Shown one piece after another: positions 33,236-46,307 of a stretch of 58,122 bases of DNA. The stretch covers positions 1-58,122 of the forward strand of contig DWWN01000002.1 of NCBI GenBank assembly GCA_019119685.1, written 5' to 3'. The translations under genes and the position numbers were made by a program. Position 1 is the stretch's first letter. Every line of letters begins with the position of its first letter. This DNA comes from Candidatus Faecalibacterium faecigallinarum (GTDB lineage Bacteria; Bacillota; Clostridia; Oscillospirales; Ruminococcaceae). Below the pieces are notes generated by a model. The model did no database searches. It had not been told where the DNA came from and saw only the letters and a list, made by a program, of their open reading frames with translations.

Positions 33236-33654
33236 AAGAGAAGTGGCCTTTTGTCATCTCCATGGCCGTTGGGGCGGCGCTTTTGGCGGCAAGTTTCCTG
33301 GTGAAAGAGGAGTATTACAGCACCATTCTTTTCGCGATGGGGGCAGGGATGTTTGCGGCGGAAGGCTTCCACCTGGCAAGGCTCTGCTGGTGGCAGAGCC
33401 CCGCACGCAAAGACGCCTATGAAGCCAAACAGCAGGAGGCTCACATCGACGCCGTGGACGAGCGCAAGCAGATGCTGCGGATGCGCGCGGGCTGGCTGAG
33501 CAATCAGATCATGTTCTTTGTGCTGCTGGCTTTGGACCTTGTGCTGGCCCTATTGAAAGCTCCGGCGTGGATCATCCTCATACTGTTCGTGCTCTGGATT
33601 TTCCAATACATCGTGGGGCTCGTCATCTACCACCGCCTGGAAAAGCGGATGTAA
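33232..33654 (+). CDS. Four-helix membrane protein of the XRE module
   Basis: A 140-residue protein with two N-terminal membrane helices (about 6-48), a cytoplasmic loop containing AVDERKQMLRMRAGWLSNQ, and two more helices (about 90-130). The DERxxxxxxxA loop matches the DUF2178-like group often encoded next to XRE regulators. Function unknown; translationally coupled to the regulator. Confidence 0.65.
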   Translation: MKEKWPFVISMAVGAALLAASFLVKEEYYSTILFAMGAGMFAAEGFHLARLCWWQSPARKDAYEAKQQEAHIDAVDERKQMLRMRAGWLSNQIMFFVLLALDLVLALLKAPAWIILILFVLWIFQYIVGLVIYHRLEKRM

Positions 33655-33668
33655 GGGAGGTTTTGGTT

Positions 33669-34082
33669 ATGAAAAAGTATCGCAATGTAGTTGTTGCCGC
33701 GCTGGGCATTGTGCTGTGGGCCGCGGGCTTCTGGCTGGTCAGGGCGGACCTGGGCAGCACGCTGGGCTATGTCTGCATTGGCCTGGGCTGCGGGATATTT
33801 GGATACGGAACGGGGGAGATGATCTCCCAGCGTGCCCTGCAGAGCGATCCCGCGCTGCAGCGCCAGATGGAGATCGCCAAAAACGACGAGCGGAACATCG
33901 CCATCGCCAACCACGCCAAGGGCCGCGCCTTCGACATGATGACCTTCATCTTTGGGGCCTTGATGGTCTCCTTTGCTCTGATGGGCATTGACCTGGCCGC
34001 CGTCCTGCTGCTGGTCGCGGCCTACCTGTTCGTCCACGGATACGCCCTGTACTGGCGGCTCCGGTACGATAAAGAAATGTAA
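33669..34082 (+). CDS. Four-helix membrane protein, paralogue-like partner
   Basis: A 137-residue protein with the same plan as its upstream neighbour: two helices, a loop with AKNDERNIAIANHAKGRAFDM, and two helices. The shared DERN-type loop and tandem position suggest an old duplication or heteromeric partner. GGGAGG precedes ATG 33669. Its 3' end is directly followed by an intact copy of the three-hairpin repeat. Confidence 0.65.
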   Translation: MKKYRNVVVAALGIVLWAAGFWLVRADLGSTLGYVCIGLGCGIFGYGTGEMISQRALQSDPALQRQMEIAKNDERNIAIANHAKGRAFDMMTFIFGALMVSFALMGIDLAAVLLLVAAYLFVHGYALYWRLRYDKEM

Positions 34083-34089
34083 GTGAAAT

Positions 34090-34273
34090 TTTAGGGGGAA
34101 CCCATTTCTGCCCGCATACGCGGGTCAGAAATTCCTTCCCCCTAATATTCCCCTGGGGACAAAATTTGGCGCTGAACCGCGCACTCGCCGCAAGGCGGCT
34201 CGCACACTCTCGGCGCCAAATTTCCCTGGTTGTGTCCCGTCCATCCGCGCATGTCGGCTGGACGGGACTTTTT
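34090..34273 (+). repeat. Three-hairpin intergenic repeat, copy A
   Basis: Hairpin 1: AGGGGGAA/TTCCCCCT, a 3x3 internal loop, ATTTCTG/CAGAAAT and CCCGC/GCGGG. Hairpin 2: AAATTTGGCGC/GCGCCAAATTT (34162-34223) enclosing GCCGC/GCGGC. Hairpin 3: GTCCCGTCCA/TGGACGGGAC with a CGCATGTCGG loop, then TTTTT, which can act as a terminator. It is nearly identical to copy B at 45.0 kb, and differences fall largely in paired or loop positions. Confidence 0.85.
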
Positions 34274-44962: not shown

Positions 44963-44984
44963 AACAAAAAGCCCGGAGAGCTTT

Positions 44985-45190
44985 AGCGTGGCGCTTTTGC
45001 GCCACGCTTTAGGGGGAACCCATTTCTGCGCGCAGTCGCGCGACAGAAATTCCTTCCCCCTAATATTCCCCTGGGGACAAAATTTGGCGCTGAACCGCGC
45101 ACTCGGCCTTGCGGCCTCGCACACTCTCAGCGCCAAATTTCCCTGGTTGTGTCCCGTCCATCCGCACATGTCGGCTGGACGGGACTTTTT
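44985..45190 (+). repeat. Three-hairpin intergenic repeat, copy B, preceded by an extra hairpin
   Basis: The core 45008-45190 matches copy A (34090-34273). Inner hairpin 1 stem is CGCGC/GCGCG instead of CCCGC/GCGGG, a compensated pair change. The hairpin 2 core is GGCC/GGCC instead of GCCGC/GCGGC, and its outer stem has TGA/TCA instead of TGA/TCG. Hairpin 3 differs by one loop base. An additional hairpin AGCGTGGCGC-tttt-GCGCCACGCT (44985-45008) abuts it. It lies between two leftward genes, in the opposite sense to them. Confidence 0.85.
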
Positions 45191-45197
45191 CAACAGC

Positions 45198-45231
45198 CCC
45201 AGCCCGGAGCAGTCCAGCTCTCCGGGCTGGG
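45198..45231 (-). terminator. Hairpin after butyrate kinase gene
   Basis: CCCAGCCCGGAG and CTCCGGGCTGGG form a 12-bp stem 9 bases past the buk stop. There is no T run on the minus strand, so termination efficiency is uncertain. Confidence 0.5.
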
Positions 45232-45239
45232 ATACGTTT

Positions 45240-46307
45240 TTAGTATTCTTTTGCTTTTTCCTCGCCGGTGACGACGCGCAGCGCGCCCTGGCACAGGGCC
45301 AGCAGCTCGTCCTCGCCGGGGTAGACGGTGATGGGCGCGATAAAGCCCAGGTACTTCTGCAGCACCTCGAGGGTGTAGGGGTCGTAGGCGATGCCGCCGG
45401 TCAGGATGATCTGATCGACCTTGCCGCACAGCACGGCGGCCATGGCGCCGGCATCCTTGGCGATCTGGTAGTAGAAGGCGTCCTGCACCAGCTTGGCCTC
45501 GGTGCTGCCCTCCTTGACCATCTTTTCCACCACACGGGCGTCGTTGGTGTGCAGGTAGGCGTTGAAGCCGCCGTTGCCGCAGATCTTTTTGTAGATCTCC
45601 TGCTGGGTATACTTGCCGGAGAAGCACATCTTGACCAGGTCGCCCACCGGCACGGTGCCGCTGCGCTCGGGGCTGAAGCAGCCCTCGCCGTCCAGGATGT
45701 TGTTCACGTCCACCACCTTGCCGTGGTCGTGGGCGCCCACCGAGACGCCGCCGCCCATGTGGATGACGATGAGGTTCAGGTCCTCGTAGCGGGTGCCGTG
45801 CTCCTTGGCATAGCGGCGGGCCACGGCTTTCTGGTTCAGGGCGTGGAAGATGGAGCGGCGGGGCAGCTCGGGCATACCGGACAGGCGGGCCTTGTCGGTC
45901 AGCTCATCCACCACCACGGGGTCCACGATGTAGCTGGGCACGCCCAGCTTGTCCCCGATCTCACGGGCCAGGATGCCGCCCAGGTTGGAGGCGTGCTGGC
46001 CCTGAACGCCCTTTTCGAGGTCGGCCAGCAGCGCGTCGCTGACGGCGTAGGTGCCGCCGGGGATGGGCTTGAGCAGGCCGCCGCGGCCGACGATCACGTC
46101 CAGGCTCTTGGGGTCGCAGTTTTTCTCTTTCAGGAAGTCCAGAATGATCTCCTTGCGGAAATCCTTCTGGTCGATGACGCTTGCATATTTGGCGATCTCC
46201 TCGGTGGGATGGCGCAGGGTCTCCTCAAACAGCAGCGTTTCATCCTCGAACACGCCCACCTTCGTGGAGGTCGAGCCGGGATTGATGACCAGCGTTTTGA
46301 TCGACAT
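45240..46307 (-). CDS. buk: Butyrate kinase
   Basis: Converts butyryl-phosphate and ADP to butyrate and ATP. The 355-residue product has the ASKHA-fold acetokinase motifs: [17 protein letters not shown] at the N-terminus, [40 protein letters not shown] and [16 protein letters not shown]. The PGGTYAVS and GGIAYDPY versions and the 355-residue length are typical of Buk rather than acetate kinase (about 400). It follows ptb by 21 bases. Confidence 0.93.

Follow-up and report, generated by a model that had tools for sequence, protein, structure and literature searches.

A four-hairpin, most likely MITE-like mobile repeat of Faecalibacterium genomes that adjoins terminator-like hairpins

Group IIC introns insert next to intrinsic terminators, and elements of the IS200/IS605 type are not expected to generate target duplications. 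Small, non-coding, multicopy repeats rich in stem-loops are described for Streptococcus pneumoniae as BOX and SPRITE (excerpted text of PMC3049150), BOX being modular and SPRITE terminator-like and enriched near gene 3' ends; according to the same excerpt, a target duplication could not be established for SPRITE. Bacterial MITEs, as outlined in the excerpted text of PMC10969869, have in common that they are short, gene-less, folded and intergenic, with terminal inverted repeats and target duplications. The element described here, present in two copies in a 58,122-nucleotide stretch of Candidatus Faecalibacterium faecigallinarum DNA (this whole stretch is hereafter the window), is most likely a MITE-like mobile repeat of Faecalibacterium genomes, consisting of four hairpins (H0 to H3) without genes. 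It shares the general build of BOX and SPRITE, and with SPRITE the terminator-like character and the enrichment near gene 3' ends, but it belongs to another genus and has another layout, four hairpins with conserved internal loops, the systems being compared here by description; where a duplication is seen, it mostly comprises a whole terminator hairpin, which sets the element apart from SPRITE. In comparison to bacterial MITEs its duplication is long, variable and spans a terminator palindrome, its terminal repeat is short and imperfect, and no parent insertion sequence was found in the searches described below. Terminator-adjacent insertion is common to the element and to group IIC introns, but the element lacks a ribozyme match, most of its carriers in the genus lack a reverse transcriptase match, and a target duplication is present. 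The target rule is unusual, in that the element goes to terminators and can duplicate a whole terminator hairpin. No description of it was found among the titles and opening parts of abstracts returned by searches of open-licence PMC papers.

The initial annotation of the window had proposed two copies of a three-hairpin repeat, and both are present as claimed, at 34090-34273 (copy A) and 45008-45190 (copy B). Their folds are stable, with z-scores of -8.16 for copy A and -11.38 for copy B and none of 200 shuffles as good in either case, and the two copies do differ in both arms of their stems in the manner reported, CCCGC/GCGGG becoming CGCGC/GCGCG, GCCGC/GCGGC becoming GGCC/GGCC, and a T-G pair becoming T-A. 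The final hairpin (H3) with its T-run is indeed terminator-like. As for the layout, the three hairpins stand, but the unit was incomplete, since a fourth hairpin (H0) and approximately 10 bp of additional 3' sequence belong to it. The features of the window relevant to this analysis are the following:

33567..34082 (+), open reading frame 5' of copy A, 171 aa, DUF6442 match, with a TAA stop 7 nt before H1
34090..34273 (+), copy A, H1-H2-H3 and T-run with no recognisable H0, 218 bits
34091..34145 (+), H1 of copy A, outer stem TAGGGGGAA...TTCCCCCTA, TTTCTG/CAGAAA, with a variable inner stem
34162..34223 (+), H2 of copy A, internal-loop halves GAACCRYGCACTC and CTCGCACACTC, with like motifs in other genera
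34234..34268 (+), H3 of copy A, terminator-like, loop GCRCATGTC
34269..34273 (+), T-run of copy A, a terminator tail that in intact copies lies within TTTTTTGACAGTCTG, decayed in copy A
44966..44984 (+), left flank of copy B, AAAAAGCCCGGAGAGCTTT, a weak repeat (10/13 bases) under the score threshold
44985..45008 (+), H0 of copy B, AGCGTGGCGCTTTTGCGCCACGCT, the 5' terminal palindrome of the mobile unit
45008..45190 (+), copy B, H1-H2-H3 and T-run, 222 bits
45191..45200 (+), decayed 3' terminal repeat of copy B, CAACAGCCCC against the consensus CGACAGTCTG
45200..45229 (.), right flank of copy B, terminator-like hairpin CAGCCCGGAG...CTCCGGGCTG
45240-46307 (-), acetate/butyrate kinase-like gene, ending at the right-flank hairpin of copy B

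Copy B is antisense to both its neighbours, a YegS-type kinase gene and the acetate/butyrate kinase-type gene, and its left flank is probably the remnant of a terminator hit by the insertion.

Reading of the flanks extends the mobile unit to approximately 215 bp, larger than the three-hairpin unit first described. Among 49 distinct copies possessing both ends (located with end patterns tolerating up to 4 mismatches), a short form measures 211–219 bp and a long form 319–330 bp, the latter accommodating an optional two-hairpin insert between H1 and H2, of which more than one type can be discerned by eye. Long-form copies of the window genome (loci L029, L036, L037, L039, L171, L174, L175, L176 and L188) have differing hairpin modules after H1, of the GCGCTTAGCCGG... 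type and of the GGTTGCGGTTCCCTG... type, recalling the B modules of BOX elements. H0, located at the 5' end of the unit upstream of H1, is present in 81 of 140 copies placed relative to genes; its commonest sequence is AGCGTGTCGCAAAAGCGCCACGCT (17/57), and in some copies (e.g., L117, L124 and L169) it appears by eye to be replaced by a short palindrome of other sequence. At the opposite end, intact copies extend about 10 bp past the T-run, which runs on into GACAGTCTG, so that the unit ends in TTTTTTGACAGTCTG. The terminal repeats are short and imperfect (5' CAGCGTGTCGCAAAA; 3' end, reverse-complemented, CAGACTGTCAAAAAA), the outer ends CAGCGTGTCG and CAGACTGTCA matching at 7 of the 10 outer bases with an A-run after each. 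By our reading, the T-run that follows the terminator-like H3 doubles as terminator tail and as part of the terminal repeat. The element is short and multicopy, as are MITEs, and its lack of coding capacity is judged from its size and hairpins. The two halves of the H2 internal loop are near-invariant within the genus and recognisable beyond it, showing that some of the sequence, too, is constrained; the fold of H1, for its part, is kept in another genus although its sequence is largely replaced.

The suggestion that the repeat is multicopy was borne out well beyond the two copies of the window, a nucleotide search of the genome to which the window belongs yielding dozens. A covariance model was built from 34 aligned copies of the window genome (2.06 Mb, 71 contigs, 85% complete), leaving out the long forms and the truncated L017 and L033; RNAalifold assigned these 34 copies 59 pairs, 21 of them with double changes. 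Searching the same genome with this model returned 55 matches scoring 100 bits or more, with 41 exceeding 180 bits (150 of 1,061 candidates scored); a few of the matches sit at contig ends, where one copy may count twice across contigs. Matches were obtained in 11 of 31 genomes of the genus and in none of the other 20, match totals overcounting the copies through weak opposite-strand hairpin matches, with at most 85 candidates scored per genome. A pattern scan of named genomes returned at least 91 stretches, and 79 of the 80 matches listed were in Faecalibacterium; carriers among the matches listed include Ca. F. gallistercoris, Ca. F. intestinigallinarum, An121, An122, a chicken assembly, and the assemblies BRZ and E19, several of the named Faecalibacterium carriers coming from chickens. 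Four of the carrier genomes (G001, G006, G010 and G016) share loci having 100% identical flanks with named Faecalibacterium contigs, which identifies the genus surveyed as Faecalibacterium. One 3.3-kb contig (L086, DVON01000080.1) is filed under Ca. Pullilachnospira; since the 40 bases shown of its right flank are the same as those of a G001 copy, and since An121 has loci in common with G001, this contig is probably misbinned. Farther afield, matches occurred in seven of 297 sampled genomes of the family, four of them in two other genera (stricter filters), and in two of 295 genomes of the order, both Faecalibacterium. The copies of the two other genera, like those of a phage lineage discussed below, are diverged relatives. 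In the DXBJ and DXHQ assemblies a number of copies are no more than approximately 100 bp from the end of a contig; short-read assembly seems to fail at the repeat, and real copy numbers probably exceed those counted. Three hairpins are also present in an AT-rich, very diverged copy (L177, G000:C48:113197-113379, 54.8 bits), which has a AATAGTCTCG end and AT-rich surroundings and was possibly acquired from elsewhere.

That the element is mobile, as initially proposed, is established by the duplications at its flanks. These occur in 11 of the 49 two-ended copies, and in none of 2,352 mismatched pairings of left and right flanks, giving the element the target-site duplication typical of MITEs. 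Duplications (repeat score of at least 10) are 18–41 bp long, seven of the 11 falling at 25–28 bp, with all duplicated bases identical in L003 (26/26) and L016 (28/28). Folding revealed that the duplicated repeat is a whole hairpin in both copies in 10 of the 11 cases, and only part of one in L066; in the other 38 two-ended copies no clear flanking duplication was found. Comparison of filled and empty sites offers a more direct view: on the empty site L099, with its single terminator, the two flanks of filled L067 have 29 nt in common, and filled L160 has two copies of a hairpin (by eye) of which empty L006 has one, a pair for which the script gave only 4 nt as the decayed 3' end had been misplaced. 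Across 12 such comparisons the script found a clean overlap in L067/L099 alone, and the ten comparisons other than these two pairs gave no duplication, some of the empty sites being too diverged to judge. In L027/L141 and L028/L158 the insertion has struck a single terminator, within its T-run or next to it, with no duplication surviving. Terminator duplications of approximately 31 bp (L219) and 34 bp (L215) were also discerned by eye in two other genera.

The same preference is apparent from the folding of flanking sequences. Left flanks of H0-containing copies fold at or below -18 kcal/mol in 48% of 163 cases, as opposed to 15% of 621 windows located 150–300 nt upstream and 18% of 269 random windows following the stop codons of element-free genes. 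Right flanks are less rich in hairpins (31% of 100, versus 16% of 391), a difference that is not significant in a rank test (p 0.14); right-hand duplicates would perhaps decay, having been made redundant by H3. The element has moved, and its 5' end adjoins terminator-like hairpins far above chance. Exact 3' ends of the element number 44 in 12 genomes, and the approximately 30 examined are mostly H3 copies, some with the long-form insert. Two are solo TTTTTTGACAGTCTG ends right after a terminator-like hairpin (L271, G001:C1:27582, and L272, G001:C4:20303), perhaps the scars of T-run recombination that removed the element, and another (L273) follows neither H3 nor such a hairpin.

No autonomous partner or mobilising enzyme was found in the searches made. 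In the stretches examined, no matching 5' end was seen at insertion-sequence distance from the exact 3' ends, and scans for a parent element with exact 3'/5' end patterns in 2, 12 and 7 genomes led, at the places examined, to copies, solo ends and coding-looking sequence. Terminator-like targets, the T-run beside the insertion in several copies and the variable duplication length might suit a retroposon, whose H3-UUUUU-ended RNA would be reverse transcribed into terminators in the manner of group IIC introns, leaving target duplications of variable length. However, RVT_1 had no match in eight of the 11 genus carriers (G000, G006, G010 and G021-G025, several assemblies being incomplete), Rfam gave no intron match, and G.U pairs are not preferred in the element (see below), making this origin very unlikely. 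Hairpin ends and palindromic targets are also reminiscent of single-strand elements of the REP/RAYT or IS200/IS605 type, in which a Y1 transposase would read the hairpins, a proposal to which we give almost no credence: target duplications unexpected for this class are seen, and nine of the 11 genus carriers had no match to Y1_Tnp (PF01797), with partial matches in G005 and G016. All Y1_Tnp matches below 1e-30 were in non-carriers. The IS1182-type domain PF13751 occurs in five of 11 carriers and three of 20 non-carriers and is absent from six carriers. None of PF13751, PF01797 and PF00078 tracks the carriers across the genus, and a search of the window genome for PF01609 did not lead to a mobilising enzyme either. 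An IS1182-derived MITE was also considered and rejected, since the resident IS1182-like elements (L200 in G016, L201 in G006, L202 in G001) have ends, GGAGCTGTTGACAAA, that differ from those of the element. By eye, these three are positioned between the arms of a palindrome, apparently in terminator loops, and are in this sense also aimed at hairpins; unlike them, lodged inside one palindrome, the element lies between two complete hairpins wherever duplicated targets survive.

Paired changes between the two copies had been taken initially as a pointer to selection on RNA or cruciform structure, and the covariation itself is beyond doubt. In a wider alignment of 107 copies from 100 chosen loci, fitted to the model and hence leaning towards pairing, 97.1% of cells pair and 35 of 59 pairs exhibit double changes, differences between copies being clearly non-random. 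Double-change cells number 606 against a shuffled mean of 171.5, and the covariation score of 0.252 falls to 0.042 or less once partners are slid. An RNA helix tolerates G.U but not A.C, so that G.U ought to be favoured if pairing of the RNA read from this strand were under selection. Yet in the stems of H1–H3, excluding a small linker hairpin, 602 alternative Watson-Crick cells are accompanied by 38 G.U and 64 A.C cells (5,325 cells in all), so that the underlying constraint or process does not favour this strand. The G.U/(G.U+A.C) ratio, bootstrapped over sequences, is 0.26–0.49, and the 78 near-complete rows contain 20 G.U and 50 A.C cells. For 26 tRNAs at the same loci the corresponding counts are 39 and 0, a weak control as ARAGORN seems to draw allowed pairs only. 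Eight pairs of orthologous copies, aligned with the covariance model, gave 36 Watson-Crick double changes, six G.U, seven A.C, nine other and 27 gapped, bearing in mind that copies recombine and such pairs are not clean in-situ histories. The tolerance of G.U on the transcribed strand expected of a cis-acting functional RNA is thus not seen. What remains of the initial suggestion is its other half, DNA hairpins (cruciforms), alongside which templated repair from arm to arm explains the pattern at least as well as RNA selection. The preferred interpretation places the strict Watson-Crick covariation at the level of DNA hairpins, either required for movement or generated by hairpin-templated repair, and does not take it as proof of a functional RNA. 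Rfam gave the element no match above its gathering threshold, in agreement with the initial view that no known RNA family has this layout, the only hit in the window being a tRNA; a relaxed search with copy A gave five matches, all far under their thresholds. An antiterminator-like pairing, GGGGACA/TGTCCC, was considered and dropped, as the T at column 151 of L005 finds its compensating change in H3 and not in that pairing.

Could the paired changes have arisen with no structural selection at all? Template switching is reported, in the excerpted text of PMC8794818, to yield instant compensatory changes and loop inversions, and hairpin-templated (quasipalindrome) replication repair, together with recombination between copies, could in principle be the main source of the covariation. 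G.U cells, like A.C cells, are rare, and their numbers are comparable in magnitude; the H0 T-C mismatch is resolved both ways among 57 copies (GTGTCGC/GCGACAC in seven, GTGGCGC/GCGCCAC in three). H0 loops read AAAA in 40 copies and TTTT in three, and at one 3' end (L266, G006:C55:54941) H3 appears by eye to be wholly inverted. Mismatch resolution, TTTT loops and the inverted H3 all fit hairpin-templated repair. Against repair as the main source stand the H2 loop halves, near-invariant in the genus and recognisable outside it, and the survival of the H1 fold in another genus in spite of its largely replaced sequence, and we therefore hold this explanation to be possible but rather doubtful.

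Placement of the element relative to genes provides a different perspective. The 140 copies were placed with a home-made hexamer gene caller trained on these genomes. Among the 59 copies without a recognised H0, 46 are behind a same-strand gene, four behind an opposite-strand gene and nine have no assignment; 41 of the 46 sense copies lie within 25 nt of the stop codon and 35 at 2–15 nt, the median distance over all 46 being 6 nt. Copies with H0 are distributed differently: 53 of 81 are behind a same-strand gene, 47 of these at 21–115 nt, 17 of the 70 assigned copies are behind an opposite-strand gene, and 11 have no assignment. Of 13 copies from other genera examined by eye, five or more (L207, L208, L210, L211 and L212) lack the mobile ends and keep H1–H3 just after an apparent stop codon. 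These observations suggest that H1–H3 is tolerated as a 3' end and perhaps useful as one. The initial suggestion of an mRNA 3' stabiliser is supported by this placement to the extent of a possible role at mRNA 3' ends.

One phage lineage carries a diverged copy of the element (IMG/VR contigs 3300018472_000295, L280, and 3300018488_000377, L295). Viral contigs gave no match to a strict pattern and 18 to a looser one, two of which were confirmed by the model, a third pattern recovering the same two. The phage copy (L295:2336-2519, 107.5 bits) belongs to a cluster of head and tail genes, where 5 nt separate it from the stop codon of the preceding gene, putatively that of the major tail protein, and the tape-measure gene lies downstream. 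This copy has neither a T-run nor mobile ends; the tail gene is named by synteny, its family phrog_3099 having no assigned function. The phage is a possible vehicle for transfer of the element between genera. Copy A had no blastn match in phage and plasmid records, nor did the phage copy when searched against phage records.

Taken together, these positions raise the alternative that the element is first and foremost a functional structured mRNA 3' element, a terminator and stabiliser or a partial terminator setting the expression of neighbouring genes, under selection as RNA, mobility merely being the means of its spread. The sense orientation of 46 of the 50 assigned copies without a recognised H0, the end-less copies of other genera, the T-run-less phage copy behind its tail gene and the near-invariant loop sequence all speak for it. 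On the other hand, G.U is no commoner than A.C, 17 of the 70 assigned H0-containing copies follow opposite-strand genes, and copy B lies antisense to the genes on either side; we consider a functional 3' element a serious possibility, somewhat short of even odds.

The explanation we prefer, with a probability of roughly 0.7, is that of a non-autonomous, MITE-type interspersed repeat mobilised in trans, which targets terminators and later becomes the 3' end of the preceding gene. An enzyme supplied in trans would recognise the ends of the element and cut the target on both sides of the terminator palindrome, and filling of the resulting gaps would duplicate the terminator hairpin. Since the element ends in a terminator-like hairpin of its own, H3 followed by the T-run, its insertion would harm no gene, and the preceding gene would acquire the element as its 3' untranslated region. 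Subsequent loss of the sequence between stop codon and H1 would leave H1–H3 approximately 6 nt after the stop codon. One point against this mobile-repeat reading is the conservation of internal-loop sequence from genus to genus, which suggests a sequence-specific function superfluous to a mere parasite. A more far-reaching version, which we advance tentatively and do not expect to hold in full, envisages a new mode of transposition: the hairpin structure of an intrinsic terminator would itself be the target, duplicated whole, the folded multi-hairpin DNA supplying the replacement terminator through a new or unrecognised trans-acting transposase or integrase, and host and phage genes alike adopting it as a standard 3' end.

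A word of caution emerges for the search for structured RNAs, in that covariation of overwhelming strength, which usually counts as proof that an RNA is functional, occurs here with no preference for G.U, and RNA claims based on repeats should accordingly add a count of G.U versus A.C. Occurring dozens of times in a genome, and in a gut genus that is common, the element offers an example in which structure-targeted insertion, and the duplication of an entire terminator hairpin that goes with it, can be put to the test, and its many copies furnish a supply of parallel 3' ends for asking what structured 3' ends do. If the proposed mechanism is true, Faecalibacterium would harbour a mobile element that does no harm, since it aims at the ends of genes and brings along the terminator it might damage.
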